Positions 9,003 to 29,821 of a DNA stretch of 46,551 bases are shown here, one piece after another. The notes below the pieces were generated by a model, which was not told where the DNA came from, did not search any database, and saw nothing but the letters and a program-made list of their open reading frames with translations. The DNA lies in IMG/VR virus record IMGVR_UViG_3300036832_000818, positions 1 through 46,551 of that record. One strand, given 5' to 3'. The stretch is from a virus. Position 1 is the stretch's first letter. Every line of letters starts with the position of its first letter. Made by a program: the position numbers and the translations under genes.

Positions 9003-9206
9003 ATGGCGACGGTAGTGGAACGGCGTGCGGCGAGTTGGGTAAAGGAGCGGTTAGTGGAGTTGGGGTTTCGGGATGTGGCGGTGAAGTTGGCGGAGATGAC
9101 GGCGCCGCACCGTGACCAGCCGACGGTGCGACCTGATCTTCCGAGATTGGACAATTGGCCGGAGCCGCCGAAGCGTCCGGTAGGAAGGCCGCGCAAGGTA
9201 GTGTAG
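9003..9206 (+). CDS. Small protein with C-terminal AT-hook
   Basis: 67 residues from ATG 9003, chosen because CGGAGG ends 5 nt upstream (a GTG at 8997 overlaps that signal). A helical N-terminal half (ERRAASWVKERLVELGFRDV) is followed by a proline-rich linker and a terminal AT-hook VGRPRKVV. The second AT-hook protein within 2 kb. Likely binds AT-rich minor groove; role unknown. Confidence 0.72.
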   Translation: MATVVERRAASWVKERLVELGFRDVAVKLAEMTAPHRDQPTVRPDLPRLDNWPEPPKRPVGRPRKVV

Positions 9207-9259
9207 GATCGTGGTGTGATCTGGTTCCTAAAGGGAACGGGTTACTCCCCATAAAACTT

Positions 9260-9282
9260 GCCCCCGTCACCGGGGGCATTTT
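9260..9282 (+). terminator. Hairpin terminator
   Basis: GCCCCCG (9260-9266) pairs with CGGGGGC (9271-9277) across TCAC, followed by ATTTT. A smaller GTTCC/GGGAAC hairpin lies upstream near 9224-9239. Confidence 0.7.
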
Positions 9283-9370
9283 GGCTCTGCCGGTGAGGCG
9301 GGGGACGGGCGGGCGTGTCGGTGTGATGCGGTCCCATCGCAGGGGCACGTCCGTTTCCGAGGGGGTGCCG

Positions 9371-10252
9371 ATGTGGCTGCATGTACACATTGGCGATCGG
9401 GAAGCGGCCGTCGTGGACGGCCTACGGCTAGGCGTCAGAGACGCCGCCTTTGACCCGGCGAAGCATCCCAAGGGCGGCGACCCGGAAAATGCCGGACGGT
9501 TTTCGAAGGGCAGTGGGGGTGGGGGAAAGAAGGCCCCTGCGCCAAAGCCGACGACCACATCTCCCTCTCCGGTCACCTTAAAGCCATCAAAGGAGCGGGC
9601 CTGGTCGGGGCAGCCGCGCCCCGAGGCGACGCGGTTGGGGAAGCAGGAGGCGGGGAAGCTGGGGGAGGCGATTGCGCAGAGTTATGTGCGGTCGCTGGGG
9701 GCGAAGGACGCGCGTCCGGTCAATGCCAAGCAATCGAATTTTCCGGTCGATTTGATGGGGGGTGACGCGGTTTACGAGGTGAAGACGGGTCAGGTCTCGA
9801 ATAGCCGCGGGGCGACGCAGTGGCGGGCGACGATTGGCCAGCCGGGCCCGACCGAGACGGCGTTGTTGGCGAATATGGGTCCGGAGGAGAAGCGGGCGTG
9901 GAACGAGCGCAAGGAGCGCGCGATCATGGCCCGCAAGGCGGAAGCGCTAAAGCAGATCGCGGCCGAGACCGGGCGGAACATCCAGGCCAAGACCTTGACG
10001 ATGATCCTCGATCCCGACCGGGGGATTGCGGACGTATTTGAGTTCCGGGGGTTTCACAAGCGGATCGCCTATAATTCCGCCGAAGCGGAGGAAGGCTATG
10101 TCGCGAGCTTCTCGTACATCGAGCGACGCGGGGGCGGGGACGAAGCCGGAACAATCTGTTCCGACTGCCTCGGAAGCCTGGGCGGAATTCGAGAAGTCCC
10201 TGGACGCGTGGTACGAAGATTATCTGGCTGGGCTACGGGACCACTTTGGTGA
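9371..10252 (+). CDS. PD-(D/E)XK-like phage protein
   Basis: 293 residues from ATG 9371 (GAGGGGG just upstream; longer frames lack such a site). The N-terminus contains the FDPAKHPKGGDPENAGRFSK motif often found in phage internal or packaging proteins. A central segment, FPVDLMGGDAVYEVKTGQ, has the D-(X)n-ExK pattern of a nuclease-like fold; a helical region rich in Lys/Glu follows. The last ~50 residues overlap another gene in a second frame and read less naturally, so the true C-terminus may be shorter or frameshifted. Its TGA overlaps the GTG of the small membrane protein at 10249. Confidence 0.68.
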   Translation: MWLHVHIGDREAAVVDGLRLGVRDAAFDPAKHPKGGDPENAGRFSKGSGGGGKKAPAPKPTTTSPSPVTLKPSKERAWSGQPRPEATRLGKQEAGKLGEAIAQSYVRSLGAKDARPVNAKQSNFPVDLMGGDAVYEVKTGQVSNSRGATQWRATIGQPGPTETALLANMGPEEKRAWNERKERAIMARKAEALKQIAAETGRNIQAKTLTMILDPDRGIADVFEFRGFHKRIAYNSAEAEEGYVASFSYIERRGGGDEAGTICSDCLGSLGGIREVPGRVVRRLSGWATGPLW

Positions 10253-17592: not shown

Positions 17593-18402
17593 TCAGGCGG
17601 CGGTGCGATCGGCCACAAGCCCGTGGTAGATGCTGAGCAGCCAGCGATAGTCGCTCAGATCGAGCAGCAGCCGGGGGTTGAGCGTCTGCATGACCGCAGC
17701 GGCACAGGCCAGTCGGGCGTAACCCGGCCACTCGGCACCGATCAGCGGCAGCCCGCTATCGGTGACAAAGGCCCGGTAGTGGCGGTCGGCCACGTCGAGC
17801 GCGCTGGTGTGGCTGTCGCGACACCAATCGAGGAAGTCGATTTCCTGGCCCCACGACCCGACACGGGCGGCGCCGACATTGGCCTGGATCGCTCGGGTGA
17901 GCCCCAGCCCCTTTTCGTCGCCGAGCTTGTCCCAGATGTCGCTGTAGAGAAAGTCGACCGGCTCGGCCGGCTTCCACGTGAGCGCGTCGGCAACGACCAG
18001 TTCGACCTTGGGCCATGACCGCCAGTCGCTGATCCGGTCCATCAGCGCGATGACCCGCTTGTCGCGTTCCACCACGGTGACTTTGGTGACCTCCGGCTTG
18101 CGCGCCAGGTTGTAGGCGACAAACCCCATGCCAAGCCCGGCGACGACGACGTGGCCGCGCGCCGCCGCGATGTGCGGCATGTGCGACTCGCGTTCCATCG
18201 CCGCCAGCGACATCCAGATCGTGCCCGACTTTCTGATCATCCAGCCGGGTTCCTGGGTCGCGTGCAGGCGAAAATAGCCCGTGGTCGGCTTGGTGAGCAG
18301 CGGGGTCGGGTCGCACGTCCAGTGCTGGTACTTGCCGGCGCGGTACTTGGGCCGTTCCGGCTCCGGCCACGGCAGTGTGATGTTGTTGATTGCGTCCATC
18401 AT
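17593..18402 (-). CDS. Class I SAM-dependent methyltransferase-like protein
   Basis: 269 residues. A Rossmann motif I (VVVAGLGMGFVAYNLA, about 86-101), a motif II acidic end (VTVVERDKRVIALM) and a DALTW/VDFLYSDIWD motif IV region resemble spermidine-synthase-like class I enzymes. No DPPY or other DNA-methylase motif is present, so the substrate is unknown. It is the last gene of the operon and has its own hammerhead (A) 28 nt upstream; the leader offers GAAAGGATCG before ATGATG. Confidence 0.75.
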   Translation of the reverse strand: MMDAINNITLPWPEPERPKYRAGKYQHWTCDPTPLLTKPTTGYFRLHATQEPGWMIRKSGTIWMSLAAMERESHMPHIAAARGHVVVAGLGMGFVAYNLARKPEVTKVTVVERDKRVIALMDRISDWRSWPKVELVVADALTWKPAEPVDFLYSDIWDKLGDEKGLGLTRAIQANVGAARVGSWGQEIDFLDWCRDSHTSALDVADRHYRAFVTDSGLPLIGAEWPGYARLACAAAVMQTLNPRLLLDLSDYRWLLSIYHGLVADRTAA

Positions 18403-21424: not shown

Positions 21425-22825
21425 CTACCGATCGACGACGACGTGGATCACTTCGCCCCACGGCGCGCGACCCTCGCGCTCGGTCGACGCCCACAGGACC
21501 GGATAATTGGGCTCCGGTCCAAAGTCGTAGCACTCAAGATCGGTGAAGTAGACGAGGCACGCGGGGGTGATCCCGAGTTCCTCGACCTTGGCAAACGACG
21601 GCGAGAACCGCGTCCCGCCCCGACCGTAGGCTTTCACCGTGATCGGATAGTCGTCTGGGCCAAATTCCTCAACCTTGTGCACCTCCTCATCGGCCAGCAG
21701 CACGGTCACCCGGTCGGGCTTCACGCTATCGATGATGGCGTTGACCTCGTCCGTGGCGCATTGCAGCGCCGCCGAATTCATGCTGATCGATGTGTCGATG
21801 ACGTACACGAGGTCCGTGATCCCGTCGCTCGTGACCGCCGGCAGGTAGAGGCCAGCGGCGACGTAACGGCGGTTTGGCGGTGTCCAGGTGTAATCCTGCT
21901 TGGCGCTGGTATCGACAAAGCGCCGCAGTTGTTCGCGCCAATCGACATAGGGGGCGCGGACTTCCTCGAACATCTCGATGAGATGCCCCGGAAGGTTGCC
22001 GGCCTTTTTGGCGATCGCGATCGTCTGCGCCACGGCTTCCTGCCAGTCCCGCTCGAGTTCCTTGGCGTCGGCCTCGGAGAGCGGCTGGTCGGTGCCGTCA
22101 TCGGATGGGGCAGAAAACGTGCCGCACCCGCCAACGTTTTCCGCTGGCGCATCGTCGTCGTCCTGTGCGTTGCTGCCAGCGCCGTCGCCGTGGCTCTCGC
22201 CATCGTCGCCGTCGTCGCCCTCGCCGTCGTCGGGCTGGTCGTCGGTGTCGCTGTCAGTTCCGGGGCTGCGGCCTTCGCCGTCGCCCTCGCCGTCACCGTC
22301 GTCCTCGCCTTCCTCGTCGTCGTCGTCATCGGCTTGCGCCTGTGACTTCGAATTCGACTTTGCTTCGGCTTGCGCTTTGGCCTCGGCCTCGGCCTTGGCC
22401 TTTGCGCGGGCGAGCTTGCGAGCGTAGAGGACGGAATAGATGCCCTCTGCCGCTTTGCCGTCAAATTCCGGATCGAGTAGAGCCGACGCTGGCAGTTGCA
22501 AGCCAGCGGCGACGATCAGGCTGTTGATGGCATAGTCGCAAGCCTCGTTGAATGTCCGATGGTGCCGTTTGCCCAGCCGCATCGGATGACCCGCTGCGCA
22601 GTGCATGATCTCGTGAGCGACAACGCCCACGAGGTGATCAAACGGCATTTTCATGATGAAATCCGGATTGTAGGACAGGGTCCGGCCATCGACGCACAGT
22701 GTCGAAATGGTGTCTCTCGCGCGCAACTTGAGCCGCAGCCCAAGCTGGCCGAAAAACGCCCATTCCGGCTTCATGATCAGCCGCATCCGCGCCTGGATCA
22801 TGCGTTTTTCGTGTTCAAGCATCAT
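21425..22825 (-). CDS. VWA-like protein with N-terminal metallopeptidase domain
   Basis: 466 residues from ATG 22825 (MMLEHEK), chosen because GAAAAGGACTTCG-ATGATG copies the leader of the sister genes; five more codons upstream are possible. The N-terminal domain has HEIMH at 71-75, a zinc HExxH motif. A long Lys/Ala then Asp/Glu/Gly-rich linker (about 135-230) separates it from a C-terminal VWA fold with the MIDAS motif DTSIS. This is the layout of the putative metallopeptidase/VWA (DUF2201-type) family, usually encoded next to a MoxR ATPase, as here. Confidence 0.85.
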   Translation of the reverse strand: MMLEHEKRMIQARMRLIMKPEWAFFGQLGLRLKLRARDTISTLCVDGRTLSYNPDFIMKMPFDHLVGVVAHEIMHCAAGHPMRLGKRHHRTFNEACDYAINSLIVAAGLQLPASALLDPEFDGKAAEGIYSVLYARKLARAKAKAEAEAKAQAEAKSNSKSQAQADDDDDEEGEDDGDGEGDGEGRSPGTDSDTDDQPDDGEGDDGDDGESHGDGAGSNAQDDDDAPAENVGGCGTFSAPSDDGTDQPLSEADAKELERDWQEAVAQTIAIAKKAGNLPGHLIEMFEEVRAPYVDWREQLRRFVDTSAKQDYTWTPPNRRYVAAGLYLPAVTSDGITDLVYVIDTSISMNSAALQCATDEVNAIIDSVKPDRVTVLLADEEVHKVEEFGPDDYPITVKAYGRGGTRFSPSFAKVEELGITPACLVYFTDLECYDFGPEPNYPVLWASTEREGRAPWGEVIHVVVDR

Positions 22826-22873
22826 CGAAGTCCTTTTCATGTTCGGCGTTCCAGCGCCGGGGTAGGTGAGCTA

Positions 22874-23981: not shown

Positions 23982-24962
23982 CTAGCCCATCAGGTCTTGG
24001 TGCTTCGCGGCGAAGTCGATGAACCGCCGCGACTCGCAGAGCAGCGGGTCGCGCTTCGTCGCGGTCTTGACCGCAAAGATCATCCACTCGGCGGGCATCC
24101 GTTCGACATAGGTCATGAAGTTGTCGAAATTGGCCTTTGTCGCCTTGTTGGCGAGGCCCGCGCCGATCGCGTACATCGTGCCGGGTTCGTCCGGAACGGC
24201 GGCCGCTTTCGGGTTTTTCAGGATGCCGTCGAGCGATGGCAGGGTGCGGAACGTGTGCATAAAAAACATGAATTCCGCAGCGGCCCCCGCCCCTACCGTG
24301 CCCGCATAGCAAGCGTGCTCGATGTCGTCGCGCGGCCCCTTGGCGAGGGCCTTTGAAACGAACGCCCACGAGCGCGGGCACGGGAAGGATTTGTCGGTCG
24401 ACTTGGGGTCGTAGGCGTGCAGCAAGTTCGGACGGAACTTGACGAACGCCACGACCTCGGGGCGGATGCCGTTGGCCGAAGCCCACGCGACCCAATCGTC
24501 CAGGTCCACTTCGCACTCGATGTGGACAAAGCGACTGGACAGGGCCTCACCCATCCGCGTCACGCCCCGGCTGGTGTCGGGGTTGCCGGCGGCGACGACG
24601 GTCCAGCCGTCAGGCAGGGTGTATTCGCCGAGCTTCCGATCGAGCGTCAGTTGCAGGATGGCGTTTTGAACCATCTGCGGCGCGCGATTGACCTCGTCGA
24701 AAAACAACACGCCCTCGCCGTCACGCGGCAGGAAGTCGGGCACCGCCCAATGGGCGCGACCGTCTCCGTTGACGTGCGGCAGGCCGCGCAAGTCGACCGG
24801 ATCGAGCAGCGCGCCACGCACGTCGATGAGCTGACGGCCCATCTTGGTAGTGACCTGCTGGACGATCGACGACTTGTAGATGCCGGCTTCCCCGGTGAGC
24901 ATCACCGGCTGCTGAAGATCGATATACATTTCGAGGGCAGCGGCGACTTGATTTGGTTTCAT
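23982..24962 (-). CDS. MoxR-like AAA+ ATPase
   Basis: 326 residues. Walker A GEAGIYKSS (24-32), Walker B GVLFFDEVNRAP (84-95), and a sensor-type segment AAGNPDTSRGVTRM place it in the MoxR/AAA_5 group. Tyr replaces the usual Gly before the Walker A Lys. MoxR proteins are chaperone-like ATPases that work on VWA-domain partners; the VWA protein is encoded two genes downstream. It is the first gene of the operon, behind hammerhead H. Role in the phage is not known. Confidence 0.88.
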   Translation of the reverse strand: MKPNQVAAALEMYIDLQQPVMLTGEAGIYKSSIVQQVTTKMGRQLIDVRGALLDPVDLRGLPHVNGDGRAHWAVPDFLPRDGEGVLFFDEVNRAPQMVQNAILQLTLDRKLGEYTLPDGWTVVAAGNPDTSRGVTRMGEALSSRFVHIECEVDLDDWVAWASANGIRPEVVAFVKFRPNLLHAYDPKSTDKSFPCPRSWAFVSKALAKGPRDDIEHACYAGTVGAGAAAEFMFFMHTFRTLPSLDGILKNPKAAAVPDEPGTMYAIGAGLANKATKANFDNFMTYVERMPAEWMIFAVKTATKRDPLLCESRRFIDFAAKHQDLMG

Positions 24963-25533: not shown

Positions 25534-25708
25534 GGTATAACGCGGATTGGTTCGCAGTATAAATCCATGTCGGATCAACAGTTTCCGAAGGATTGAGCCT
25601 GCTGCGACAAATCGCGCAGGGTCGCGCAGTACTTGGTAATACTTGGGATTACTAAGAGTTAGTCTTGATGACTGTGATAGTACCAACACCAACCGCCGGG
25701 GTGCTTTG

Positions 25709-26341
25709 ATGGGCCAAGCATTGCGACGGACCAAGCCGATCGATGTTTTAGAGGGGCAAGTCGCCGCGTCTGCCGCGGCCGCGGGGCAAGTCGATCCCCC
25801 GCCCGTGATCATCTGGCGCACCGTCGACGAGCTGATCCCCTACGCGCGCAATGCCCGCTTGCACACCCCCAAGCAGATCGACCAGATCGCTGCCTCGATC
25901 CGCGAATTCGGCTTCACCAACCCGGTGCTGATCGGTGACGACAACGGGATTATCGCCGGCCACGGCCGCGTCCTGGCCGCGCGGCGGCTGGAACTGGCCC
26001 GCGTCCCGTGCCTCGCGCTGTCGCACCTGACCCCGGCGCAGCGCCAGGCGTACATCATCGCCGACAACAAGCTGGCACTAAACGCGCGCTGGGACGACGA
26101 GCTGCTGGCCGGCGCCTTTGACGACCTGGTCGCAATCGAGTTCGACATCGATGTCCTCGGCTTCAGCGACAGCGAGATGTACCACCTCCGATTTGGGCTC
26201 GGTGACGGCGGCGACGCCGAGATCGACAACGTCCAGTCATCCTGGGCGGTCGTCGTCGAGTGCGCCGACGAGGAGGAACAGGTCGCCCTCATCGCCGAAC
26301 TCCAGGCCAAGGGCCACAAAGTGAAAGGGTCGATCACGTGA
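25709..26341 (+). CDS. ParB-like nuclease-fold protein
   Basis: 210 residues from ATG 25709. The ParB N-terminal fold is clear: LIPYARNARLHTPKQIDQIA, then GFTNPVLIGDDNGIIAGHGRVLAARRL, which holds the GHGR motif. A C-terminal extension (WAVVVECADEEEQVALIAEL) is typical of phage members. There is no ParB central HTH, so it is not a segregation protein. Phage relatives often sit beside DNA methylases or modification genes; here its partner is an ABC-ATPase/GNAT protein, joined by a GTGA overlap. Confidence 0.86.
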   Translation: MGQALRRTKPIDVLEGQVAASAAAAGQVDPPPVIIWRTVDELIPYARNARLHTPKQIDQIAASIREFGFTNPVLIGDDNGIIAGHGRVLAARRLELARVPCLALSHLTPAQRQAYIIADNKLALNARWDDELLAGAFDDLVAIEFDIDVLGFSDSEMYHLRFGLGDGGDAEIDNVQSSWAVVVECADEEEQVALIAELQAKGHKVKGSIT

Positions 26342-27516
26342 AAATCGGCATCGTCCGCGAATGCCCGATCGTCGAGACGCCGCGCGTGGTTCAGGTCAGC
26401 GGCATGTTCGACATGGCGCTCAGCGAAAAGAGCCGGATCGAAATCACCGGCTCACTGCCGATCGAGGAGCGGCCGTGGAGTGTCGGGCTCATCGTCGGCC
26501 CTTCCGGCAGCGGCAAGTCGACCGTCGCCCGCGAGTTGTTTGGGCCGGCGGTGACGACCGGGTTCGAATGGCCTACGGACAAGTCCGTACTTGACGGCTT
26601 CCCCGAGGACATGGGCATCAAGCCGATCGCCGGCCTCCTCAACGCGGTCGGGTTTGGCAGCACGCCAAACTGGCTGCGCCCGTTCCACGTGCTGTCAAAT
26701 GGCGAGCAGTTCCGCGTGACCGTCGCGCGCGGCCTCGCCGAAAAGCCGGAACTGCTGGTGATCGACGAATTCACGTCGGTGGTCGACCGGCAGGTCGCCA
26801 AGGTCGCCGCGCACTGCGTCCAGAAGACCGTGCGGCGCACCCACCAGAAGTTCATCGCGGTGTCGTGCCACTACGACATCCTCGAGTGGCTCCAGCCGGA
26901 CTGGGTGTATGAGCCGCATATCGGCGCCTTCGAATGGAGGTTACTTCAACGACGACCAGTCATCGACCTTGAAATCCGCAGTGTTCGTCGTGAAGTCTGG
27001 CCGCGCTTTAGCAAATATCACTATCTGAGCCCGCACCTGTTGGGCAGCGCGGTGTGCATCGGCGGCTTTATCCAGAACCAGTGCGTGGCGTTCTGCTCGG
27101 CGTCCTTCTTCCCGCACGCGATCACCCGCAACATCTACCGCGAGCATCGCACCGTGGTGCTGCCCGACTACCAGGGGCTCGGCCTCGCCGGTATCCTCGC
27201 CGACTGGCTCGGACTGCATTTCTGGGAGCGCGGCTGGCGGTTTCATTCGGTGACGGCGCACCCGGCGATCATCGCCTCCAAGGCGGCCTCGCCGCGTTGG
27301 AAGCTCACCAGTCTCGGGCTCGGTTCAGGAGGCGGCCGCCATGCCGACGCAAGACTCAAGCGGGCGCAGAACACTGTCTCGATGCGACGAACGACCGCCC
27401 ATTTTGTCTACACCCCGCCCGCCGGCACCGCCAGCGCCCGACTGCCCGAACGCACCGGCCCCCTCCTCGGTGTCGCCAATCGCTGGGCGGTCGAGCGACG
27501 CGGTGCCGCTGCCTGA
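26338..27516 (+). CDS. ABC-type ATPase fused to a GNAT acetyltransferase domain
   Basis: 392 residues from GTG 26338. ATPase part: Walker A GPSGSGKST (54-62), signature LSNGEQ (119-124), Walker B LLVIDE (139-144), H-loop His178. No transmembrane segment is present, so it is not a transporter. GNAT part (about 210-380): an acceptor-side WPRFSKYHYLS segment, TVVLPDYQGLGLAG (the acetyl-CoA motif A, 272-284), then TAHPAIIASKAASPRWKL. Such fusions occur in phages beside ParB-like proteins. A role in DNA or nucleotide modification is plausible but unproved. Confidence 0.85.
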   Translation: MKIGIVRECPIVETPRVVQVSGMFDMALSEKSRIEITGSLPIEERPWSVGLIVGPSGSGKSTVARELFGPAVTTGFEWPTDKSVLDGFPEDMGIKPIAGLLNAVGFGSTPNWLRPFHVLSNGEQFRVTVARGLAEKPELLVIDEFTSVVDRQVAKVAAHCVQKTVRRTHQKFIAVSCHYDILEWLQPDWVYEPHIGAFEWRLLQRRPVIDLEIRSVRREVWPRFSKYHYLSPHLLGSAVCIGGFIQNQCVAFCSASFFPHAITRNIYREHRTVVLPDYQGLGLAGILADWLGLHFWERGWRFHSVTAHPAIIASKAASPRWKLTSLGLGSGGGRHADARLKRAQNTVSMRRTTAHFVYTPPAGTASARLPERTGPLLGVANRWAVERRGAAA

Positions 27517-27587: not shown

Positions 27588-27995
27588 ATGGCTGCGTCAA
27601 GGGGGTCAAGGGCACTCACGGCGGCGATGGTTGTGCCGTCGCAGCCGGGAGAATTGTTGTTGTCGATGTACTACCCGGAAGTCGATCAGGTGCTGATTTT
27701 TGACAATCACGTCCTGGGCTGGGTGGTGGACAGCGCCGAGCCGCAGGGCGCGGAACCGATCCCCCGGATCATCGGCGCTCTGCCGCCTGCGGCGGAAGGG
27801 CCGCAATGGGCCTCGGTGATGGCAAACGGCACGGTCTTTGTGCCCGACCTCTATCGCGGCTCGGCAACGGACTTTTTTTCGTGGCTGGCGGCACTCGGCG
27901 ACGGCTACCGGCTCAACGGCGACGGGCTGACCGTGGGGTTTCTCGCGACGGCGTGGCGCGGTTGGGCCGGCGGGCACGGTTCGCAGACGTTCTGA
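27588..27995 (+). CDS. Hypothetical protein (135 aa)
   Basis: ATG 27588 with GAGGAGGCG upstream. A beta-rich protein: LLLSMYYPEVDQVLIFDNHV, then APEWA/GTVFVPDLYRG-type segments. Not recognised. It sits between the ABC-GNAT gene and the terminase genes. Confidence 0.7.
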   Translation: MAASRGSRALTAAMVVPSQPGELLLSMYYPEVDQVLIFDNHVLGWVVDSAEPQGAEPIPRIIGALPPAAEGPQWASVMANGTVFVPDLYRGSATDFFSWLAALGDGYRLNGDGLTVGFLATAWRGWAGGHGSQTF

Positions 27996-28110: not shown

Positions 28111-28578
28111 ATGGCGAACAGGCAGCATTTCCGGGTCAGTCACATCAAGGAAGCGCTGATCAAGGGGGCCGGCATCCCCTCGGTCGCGGCGAAAATTCTG
28201 GCTCAAGCCTATGGAAGCTGCACCCCGCCGACCGTGCGCAACTACATCAAGCGCTACCCCAAACTCCAGGCCGTGGTCGCCAATGCGCTCGACGAAAACC
28301 TCGACCTCGCCGAGTCAAAGCTGCTGGTCGCGCTCAACCAGGGGGCCGACTGGGCGGTCAAGTTCTACCTCGAAACGCAGGGCAAAAGCCGGGGCTACAC
28401 CAAGCGCTCGGAGATTGCCGGTGTGCCGCAACAGCCAATCGTGGTGACCAATGCTCGGGAATGGCTCACTGAACAACTCGATAACATGGAAGCCCGACTC
28501 CGACAGGAGCCCGGCCGACCGCATGGCGCTGCTGGAACGGACGGAACGGCTGAAACTGCTCAAAAAACTGTCCACTAA
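28111..28578 (+). CDS. Terminase small subunit-like protein
   Basis: 155 residues. The N-terminal half is an HTH-rich region (HIKEALIKGAGIPSVAAKIL, then CTPPTVRNYIKRYPKL) like small terminases that bind the packaging site; DLAESKLLVALNQGADWAVK is the common oligomerisation-type helix. It overlaps the large subunit by 56 nt. The assignment rests on position and fold pattern. Confidence 0.75.
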   Translation: MANRQHFRVSHIKEALIKGAGIPSVAAKILAQAYGSCTPPTVRNYIKRYPKLQAVVANALDENLDLAESKLLVALNQGADWAVKFYLETQGKSRGYTKRSEIAGVPQQPIVVTNAREWLTEQLDNMEARLRQEPGRPHGAAGTDGTAETAQKTVH

Positions 28579-29821
28579 ACAGGCCGAGGGGCTGCGCTGG
28601 GACTGGAGCTATTGGGCGCGGCCCTCGCAATGGCCGCCGAACGATCCGGACTGGCTCTACTTCATGATGATGGCCGGTCGCGGATCGGGGAAGACCCGCG
28701 CCGGGGCCGAGTGGATACGCAAGCAAAAGGATACCTGTCCGCTCATCGCGCTGGTCGGCGCCACGGAAGACGACGTCAAGGATGTCATGATCGAGGGGCC
28801 GGCCGGGTTGCAGGCCATTGCGCCCCCCGGCGACTACCCGAAAATGACCAAGGGGCACCTCGTCTGGCCCAACGGCGCGATGGCGTTTATCTACTCGGCG
28901 CAGCGGCCCGACCAGTTGCGCGGGCCGCAGAACTACGCCGCGTGGTGTGACGAACTGGCCTCGTGGGCTTATCCCGAGGACACCTGGTCAAACCTGCAAT
29001 TCGGGATGCGGCTCGGGCAGCGCCCGCGCACCCTGATCACGACCACACCCCGACCGATCAAACTGGTGCGCGACCTGATGGGCGACCCCCTCACCCGCAT
29101 CTCGCGGACCAGTTCCTACGCCAACCGCTCGCACCTCGCGCCGTCCTACTTTGACAAGATCATCGCGCGGTACGAAGGCACCCGGCTCGGCCGCCAGGAA
29201 ATTTACGCGGAACTGCTCGACGATGTTCCGGGCGCGCTGTGGTCGCAGGAGGTGATCGAGGCGACCCGCCTCCCCTTTGGCATCAAACTGCCCGACTTTA
29301 GCCGCATTGTCGTCGCCATCGACCCCGGCATGTCGGCGTCGGACGATGCGGACGAGACCGGCATCGTTGTTGCGGCCAAGGACCGGAACGAACACGCCTA
29401 TGTTCTGGCGGATCGTTCCGGTCATTACCTGCCGAGCGAGTGGGCACAGATCGCGATCGACGAACACCGGCACCCCGACCGCCCCGCCGACCGGATCGTC
29501 GGTGAGATCAACAACGGCGGCGAGATGATCGAAAACACGCTGCGCATGATCGATGTCGGAATACCGTTTAAGGCCGTGCACGCGACGCGCGGCAAGGTCA
29601 TGCGGGCCGAGCCGGTATCGGCACTCTACGAGCAGCGGCGGGTCCACCACATCGGGATGTTCCCGGCGCTGGAAGACCAGATGATCAGTTTCACCCAGGA
29701 CTGGAACCGTTCCAAGGATGGTTCCCCGGATCGGGTCGACGCGCTGGTCTGGGCGATCAGCGAACTTTTGGTCGAGGACAGCGGGCCGTCTTACCTCGCC
29801 GCCTGGGGCCGTTGGAACTAG
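28523..29821 (+). CDS. terL: Terminase large subunit
   Basis: 432 residues from ATG 28523. ATPase: Walker A AGRGSGKT (51-58) and Walker B with CDE at 142-144, then a TTTPRPIKL coupling motif. The nuclease domain starts with VVAIDPGMSASDDADETG (about 255), giving the first catalytic aspartate; further acidic residues follow near GSPDRVDALVWA. It translocates DNA into the prohead and cuts it. A longer upstream frame lies within the small subunit gene and is not needed. Confidence 0.93.
   Translation: MALLERTERLKLLKKLSTKQAEGLRWDWSYWARPSQWPPNDPDWLYFMMMAGRGSGKTRAGAEWIRKQKDTCPLIALVGATEDDVKDVMIEGPAGLQAIAPPGDYPKMTKGHLVWPNGAMAFIYSAQRPDQLRGPQNYAAWCDELASWAYPEDTWSNLQFGMRLGQRPRTLITTTPRPIKLVRDLMGDPLTRISRTSSYANRSHLAPSYFDKIIARYEGTRLGRQEIYAELLDDVPGALWSQEVIEATRLPFGIKLPDFSRIVVAIDPGMSASDDADETGIVVAAKDRNEHAYVLADRSGHYLPSEWAQIAIDEHRHPDRPADRIVGEINNGGEMIENTLRMIDVGIPFKAVHATRGKVMRAEPVSALYEQRRVHHIGMFPALEDQMISFTQDWNRSKDGSPDRVDALVWAISELLVEDSGPSYLAAWGRWN

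Follow-up and report, generated by a model that had tools for sequence, protein, structure and literature searches.

In a stretch of viral DNA of 46,551 nucleotides (IMG/VR record IMGVR_UViG_3300036832_000818; this whole stretch is called the window below), a ParB-like gene and a gene for an ABC ATPase fused to a GNAT domain probably form a two-gene phage cassette for ATP-dependent acylation of DNA bases, with ParB-aided targeting and protection from restriction. The ATPase and acyl-CoA motifs of the enzyme are intact, its ParB-like partner is conserved and in one genome fused to it, relatives occupy a mom-like site after com, and terminase genes are adjacent. Judged by its sequence, the window protein is a member of the predicted ABC-GNAT DNA acyltransferase family, which is catalogued without a function as PHROG 11143 and from which nothing essential sets it apart. 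The original prediction of an ABC-ATPase-coupled GNAT is reportedly that of Iyer et al. 2013 (NAR 41:7635). In a passage of PMC7824862 (Iyer, Aravind et al.), which cites that paper, ABC-GNAT proteins are predicted to acyl-modify a DNA nucleobase, with Tenacibaculum phage pT24 as an example. With 33.9% identity (E=2e-48), the pT24 protein is homologous to that of the window and shares its architecture and motifs. Because this published example is a homologue, the protective DNA modification proposed by an earlier, sequence-only reading of the window is an existing prediction; it is the best-supported account and is already in print for the family, while the modified base is itself only predicted. 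What is new here is gene-neighbour evidence, which supports that published prediction. We found no experimental test of ABC-GNAT proteins in the literature searched, most subscription journals being outside its scope, and the paper on Leptospira phages LE3 and LE4 contained nothing on restriction or modification of phage DNA.

The ABC-GNAT gene is an open reading frame at positions 26338 to 27516 of the plus strand, which starts with GTG and encodes 392 amino acids. Its GC content at the three codon positions (0.64/0.49/0.83) resembles that of the terminase gene (0.63/0.47/0.83), and the frame therefore looks coding. Its start overlaps the stop of the ParB-like gene by 4 nt: at the junction ATCACGTGAAAATC, the ParB stop TGA (26339-26341) starts on the last two bases of the GTG at 26338, as the sequence-only reading had described. 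That reading had delimited the system to 26338-27516, which leaves out the ParB partner. The partner (P0002) runs from 25709 to 26341 on the same strand, its ATG at 25709 being a more likely start than the TTG at 25643 that gives the longest ORF.

The motifs of both domains are conserved in an alignment of 40 ABC-GNAT relatives with identities as low as 29%. In the ABC domain, G54, S56, G57, G59 and K60 of the Walker A motif GPSGSGKST (residues 54-62, positions 26497-26523) are invariant, as are L119, S120 and G122 of the signature LSNGEQ (119-124, 26692-26709). The same holds for D143, E144, S147, V148 and R151 of the segment (26752-26790) that contains Walker B (LLVIDE, 139-144, with catalytic Glu144) and the D-loop (SVVDR, 147-151). 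The H-loop His178 lies in the sequence SCHYDILEWLxPDW (176-189, 26863-26904), in which C177, H178, Y179, D180, W184, P187 and W189 are invariant. The GNAT domain covers about residues 206-360 (26953-27417). Its HYL motif (228-230, 27019-27027) has Y229 and L230 invariant and H228 above 90%. Its acyl-CoA pyrophosphate loop RTVVLPDYQGLGLA (271-284, 27148-27189) follows the pattern R271-x-V-x-x-P-D-x-Q-G-x-G-x-G that is conserved among the relatives, with R271, P276 and G280 invariant and D277, G282 and G284 above 90%. Across the 40 relatives SCHYDILEWLxPDW in the H-loop, SVVDR in the D-loop, and W..F...HYL with R.V..PD.QG.G.G in the GNAT domain are family-specific signatures. Conservation across hundreds of sequences excludes a chance origin of the ABC-GNAT protein. 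The invariance or near-invariance of the ABC and acyl-CoA-binding motifs in such divergent relatives counts in favour of DNA acylation, and so does the fact that Aravind's group reached the same prediction on evidence of their own.

Profile and structural comparisons agree with the motifs. Pfam matched ABC_tran (E=4.7e-9) and Acetyltransf_1 (E=2.4e-4) to the window protein, both beyond the curated cut-offs, and phrog_11143 matched it over its full length (residues 7-359) at 2.5e-94. AlphaFold2 gave a confident model with two domains (pLDDT 85.5); the GNAT domain modelled alone reached a pLDDT of 84.0. A Foldseek search with the whole model returned ABC nucleotide-binding domains, which filled the list and made it uninformative on the GNAT domain, and the GNAT model was therefore searched separately. 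It matched GNATs, the best solved folds among the top 50 PDB matches being RimI, SpeG, PAT and others. With the acyl-CoA loop Q/R-x-x-G-x-G/A and the GNAT fold, the protein is a member of the GNAT superfamily. Thus the claim of a complete ABC ATPase and a GNAT domain in one polypeptide was borne out, every named motif being present and Pfam, AlphaFold2 and Foldseek in agreement, and the structure prediction that had been proposed for the fusion confirmed its two domains. The polypeptide had also been said to have no membrane segments, and Pfam listed no membrane-domain or permease family for it. By sequence and by fold the ABC domain groups with the nucleotide-binding domains of transporters and not with the DNA-clamping SMC/Rad50 ATPases. 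An ABC transporter was considered and rejected: there is no permease match in cis (Pfam), and the gene neighbours are the ParB-like gene and packaging genes.

Several of these results count against DNA acylation. The ABC domain is transporter-like rather than SMC/Rad50-like, and the best solved folds of the GNAT domain, such as RimI and SpeG, act on proteins or small molecules. They would fit a GNAT whose target is a protein of the host or the phage, such as RNA polymerase, a defence protein or the terminase complex, the ABC domain serving as an ATP-driven switch; phage GNATs that modify the host RNA polymerase are known (Rac), and the cassette often adjoins terminase genes. Such protein acylation is unlikely, and it leaves unexplained the com-mom position, the kinship of the ParB-like partner to ParB-methyltransferases and the presence of a ParB-like gene beside a true Mom gene, which are described below.

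The terminase large subunit gene of the window lies at 28451-29821 on the plus strand (phrog_979, 3.3e-36). The ABC-GNAT gene thus comes shortly before the packaging genes, an arrangement shared by many relatives, and 52 of 160 loci have a TerL-like gene near the family gene. Between the ABC-GNAT and terminase genes the window has a 135-aa ORF (27588-27995, plus strand) without a Pfam or PHROG match, in the slot that a formyltransferase or PanD gene fills in relatives. Elsewhere, on the minus strand, the window carries a methyltransferase-like gene (17593-18402), whose substrate could be DNA, an HNH endonuclease-like gene (21425-22840) and an AAA-type ATPase gene (23982-24962).

The ParB-like protein has a ParB_N-type domain, matches the ParB-like PHROG profile at 1.1e-47 and our own profile at 2.1e-50, and carries GHGR at 25958-25969. 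The Pfam search of it gave no HTH family, so both features that had been read from the letters, GHGR present and HTH missing, were found. Its Pfam ParB_N score of 19.3 is under the curated cut-off of 26.3. A canonical ParB partition protein was rejected on this sub-threshold score, on the missing HTH family in Pfam and on the fact that no ParA is named among the annotated genes of the window. The protein matches the N-terminal part of phrog_498, a profile of phage DNA methyltransferases with a ParB domain, at 3.6e-45, and many of its phage matches are annotated as methyltransferases; in phrog_498, however, the modification domain is a SAM methyltransferase and not an ABC-GNAT. In Microbacterium phage Appa, a ParB-like gene overlaps a true Mom gene. 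Because of this methyltransferase kinship and the Mom overlap in Appa, ParB-like proteins can be said to recur with DNA-modifying enzymes of differing chemistry, in line with the earlier remark that ParB-fold proteins accompany DNA modification in phages.

The association with ABC-GNAT genes is frequent. When ORFs in all reading frames upstream were counted, a ParB-like ORF was present on the same strand, at most 1.5 kb upstream, in 51 of the 70 viral and 66 of the 72 bacterial loci that could be checked, and it ended no more than 60 nt from the ABC-GNAT start in 50 viral and 45 bacterial loci. In a Gemmataceae genome (L113:7407-9107), ParB, its C-terminal module and ABC-GNAT form a single 611-codon ORF. 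This module of about 35 residues (WAVVVECADEEEQVALIAELQAKGHKVKGSIT; 26237-26338, plus strand, in the window) is the part closest to the enzyme, and immediately before the ABC-GNAT gene its profile matched in 124 of 162 loci (viral, 62 of 84; bacterial, 62 of 78). In six Mu-like or related loci (L040, L041, L043, L068, L198 and L201) it is a free-standing short ORF of 44-66 codons from stop to stop, and the partner of the Mu-like relatives is this module alone, without the ParB domain. Since the module adjoins the ABC-GNAT gene and stands alone in six loci, the data suggest that the module rather than the ParB domain is the adaptor to ABC-GNAT. Neither ParB nor the module was found upstream in the members from large lytic phages (PX29, pT24, L037 and others), so ParB is not obligatory, and its absence there counts against DNA acylation. 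The window thus differs from pT24, which has no upstream ParB module according to our own profile. In the pT24 record (LC168164, L197:3974-5146), an in-frame stop lies within the GNAT domain and the gene is split into two CDS.

A ParB-like partner and a site beside the terminase genes might also be expected of a DNA segregation, condensation or packaging device, in which ParB and the ABC ATPase handle DNA and the GNAT domain is regulatory. We consider such a device very unlikely, because the acyl-CoA loop and the HYL motif are no less invariant than the motifs of the ATPase, the ParB-like protein has no HTH in Pfam, and the stand-alone partner modules have no ParB domain.

The strongest functional evidence found for the acylation of DNA is the com-mom position of the family gene. 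Com is the translational activator of mom in phage Mu, whose genome ends with com and mom. The Com zinc ribbon PF10122 was matched shortly before the module and ABC-GNAT in L040 (2.2e-21), L068 (1.6e-11) and L201 (7.9e-21), so that the gene order in these Mu-like genomes is com, C-terminal module, ABC-GNAT; this arrangement was directly seen in these three genomes only. One of them, Pseudomonas phage Komp_PAO1_1 (L201), encodes a transposase and Mu Gam, and its cassette comes immediately after the gene for tail-fibre assembly. In the other two, ABC-GNAT finishes precisely where the contig does (contigs of 35,152 and 37,396 bases), which fits the right end of a Mu-like genome. On account of this com-linked, genome-end position, ABC-GNAT appears to stand in for Mom in Mu-like phages. 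The tiny ORFs of the Mu-like loci were themselves considered as Com and rejected, since they are the ParB C-terminal module and Com is just upstream in another frame. Com is absent from the window. In Aeromonas phage PX29 (L203, L206), ABC-GNAT and a true Mom-like gene occur in one phage, and a gene with similarity to DNA methyltransferases is two genes downstream of ABC-GNAT.

The kinship to Mom that the sequence-only reading had raised did not hold. The Mom family PF25680 is missing from the Pfam table of the window protein (25 families, E up to 1), whereas Mu Mom matches it at 2.4e-75. The proposed profile search for Mom-like residues, run against nine diverse Moms from phage records, succeeded in part. 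Mom's H58-Y59, an HY motif in the substrate-side helix region that is invariant in all nine, was aligned by hhalign to H228-Y229 of ABC-GNAT (42% probability, E=2.6e-4), a weak match that we read at the superfamily level only. The invariant Asp149 of Mom, in the SFAD segment, has no counterpart, being replaced by T-x-x-P in most members of the ABC-GNAT family, and the lack of this Asp counts against DNA acylation. Conversely, the QGxGxG loop and the ABC domain are present in ABC-GNAT and not in Mom. The solved Mom structure 8bv8 was outside the top 50 PDB fold matches, and a viral Mom was ninth in BFVD. Mom of phage Mu, a DNA methylcarbamoylase, and the window protein are therefore alike in the GNAT fold, the HY site, the Com-linked position in Mu-like phages and the proposed anti-restriction role. 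The window protein falls outside the Mom family, but its function may be like that of Mom.

ATP use coupled to acetyl transfer had been called unusual, and here a precedent exists. TmcA and NAT10 combine an NTPase and a GNAT in one chain and acetylate an RNA nucleobase at the expense of ATP. By analogy the window protein could acylate tRNA or mRNA, as these enzymes make N4-acetylcytidine. NAT10 is among the weak sequence matches of the GNAT profile (E=0.03), and an ASCH-domain gene is near ABC-GNAT in about 18 loci, often convergent; the ASCH fold includes the N4-acetylcytidine amidohydrolase YqfB. The ASCH gene is at the 3' end of the family gene in L085, L086, L087, L088, L089, L094, L096, L098, L105 and L122, and farther off in L002, L029, L093, L110, L113 and L114. 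The assignment comes from PF04266 for the L087 copy, and the representative tested falls in phrog_3193, a PHROG without a function. The NTPases are of different classes, helicase-type in TmcA/NAT10 and ABC here, the sequence similarity is weak, the window has no ASCH gene, and the ParB, Com and terminase context points to DNA. RNA as the substrate is improbable, slightly more so than protein. If DNA is acylated, the ASCH protein is a candidate reader or amidohydrolase of the modified base.

Two other neighbours hint at the chemistry. A formyltransferase gene (PF00551) directly follows ABC-GNAT in one clade (tree support 1.0; L198:4628-5101, L199:1826-2473, L201:5113-5730, L041:7143-7616, L043:7076-7675) and occurs in at least 18 of the 19 phage records, from Pseudomonas, Porphyromonas and Gordonia phages, whose ABC-GNAT is more than 50% identical to that of Komp_PAO1_1. 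In several Gordonia phages it is annotated, probably wrongly, as a tRNA-methyltransferase. An aspartate 1-decarboxylase (PanD) gene directly follows ABC-GNAT in three separate clades, namely in Gordonia phage Jace (L002:7110-7535), L110 (2671-2988), L124 (1508-1864) and L123 (about 9137-9495), with PF02261 matched in Jace and L110. In the L123 copy the stretch examined contains in-frame stops, perhaps from a frameshift. Neither a formyltransferase nor a PanD gene was found in the window. Amines are the substrates of formyltransferases with the PF00551 fold (for PurN, glycinamide ribonucleotide) and beta-alanine is the product of PanD, so an aminoacyl group on the base would unite both neighbours. 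PanD may more simply supply beta-alanine for CoA.

PanD directly downstream in four loci could instead indicate a small-molecule acyltransferase or a metabolic regulator, for example a PanM-like GNAT acting on PanD, and among the BFVD matches of the GNAT model is a viral protein that bears the name aspartate 1-decarboxylase, which may be a misnomer for PanM. However, only 4 of about 165 loci have PanD as a neighbour, whereas most have ParB or the C-terminal module, and PanM has no ABC domain. A metabolic role is the least probable of all the readings considered.

Six phages of Gram-positive hosts carry the two domains in different frames. In Javan141, Vinitor-27, P335, MismyG, Enterococcus phage 9184 and Javan420 (L196:4010-4180, L214, L215, L216, L217 and L218), the reading frame of the GNAT is shifted by -1 from that of the ABC domain, the frames overlap by 33-44 codons, and the stop of the ABC frame always falls 10 nt beyond the base that opens the [Y]HYL motif. 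Upstream of HYL, the GNAT frame offers no ATG, GTG or TTG in five of these six phages, so an ordinary independent start cannot supply the first strand and helix of the GNAT. The four Streptococcus/Lactococcus sequences have a GGTTTTTC run followed, after a few nucleotides, by a GC-rich stem CCCCCAC/GTGGGGG. In MismyG the two arms of this stem are shortened in concert, and the ABC frame of Enterococcus 9184 contains A_AAA_AAG. These sequence features make it likely that a programmed -1 ribosomal frameshift produces the fusion in Gram-positive phages. If so, the joining of the ABC and GNAT domains is under selection. The split forms are currently annotated as two separate genes.

The family is widespread. 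Matches to ABC-GNAT were found in 144 IMG/VR stretches, 355 stretches of bacterial genomes and 81 phage records; in 31 of these phage records a single match spans at least 80% of the query. Many of the 80 genome loci kept are from Planctomycetes, Nonomuraea and Endozoicomonas. Because terminase, portal or capsid genes are close to ABC-GNAT at many genome loci, these loci are prophages at least in part. The window protein has its closest relatives in two IMG/VR contigs (65%) and in a contig from a Hyphomicrobium genome (55%), suggesting that the host of the window virus is an alphaproteobacterium.

In the mechanism that we infer, with DNA as its substrate and with its assignments of base and acyl group, use of ATP and anti-restriction outcome, the ParB-like protein would bring the enzyme to DNA or to its target by means of the C-terminal module. 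Two ABC domains would together act on the DNA as an ATP-dependent clamp or pump, exposing or straining the target base. The GNAT domain would then move an acyl group from acyl-CoA to an exocyclic base amine in replicated phage DNA before packaging, and the mark would protect the phage DNA against restriction, as Mom does for phage Mu. A more detailed account would combine several of the above findings: the ATP-gated GNAT would put an amino-acid-derived acyl group, glycyl or, where PanD adjoins, beta-alanyl, on the base amine; in one clade a PurN-like formyltransferase would cap the new amine with formyl; the enzyme would replace mom in some Mu-like phages, and in Gram-positive phages it would be fused by programmed -1 frameshifting. 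As a whole this account is unlikely.

If this family acylates DNA, GNATs would have two routes to hypermodified DNA, that of Mom and a second one that is the first to use an ABC ATPase. The neighbours Com, formyltransferase, PanD and ASCH make a decade-old prediction specific and hint at the chemical groups involved. The route would also be a common one, present in hundreds of phages and prophages across many bacterial phyla.
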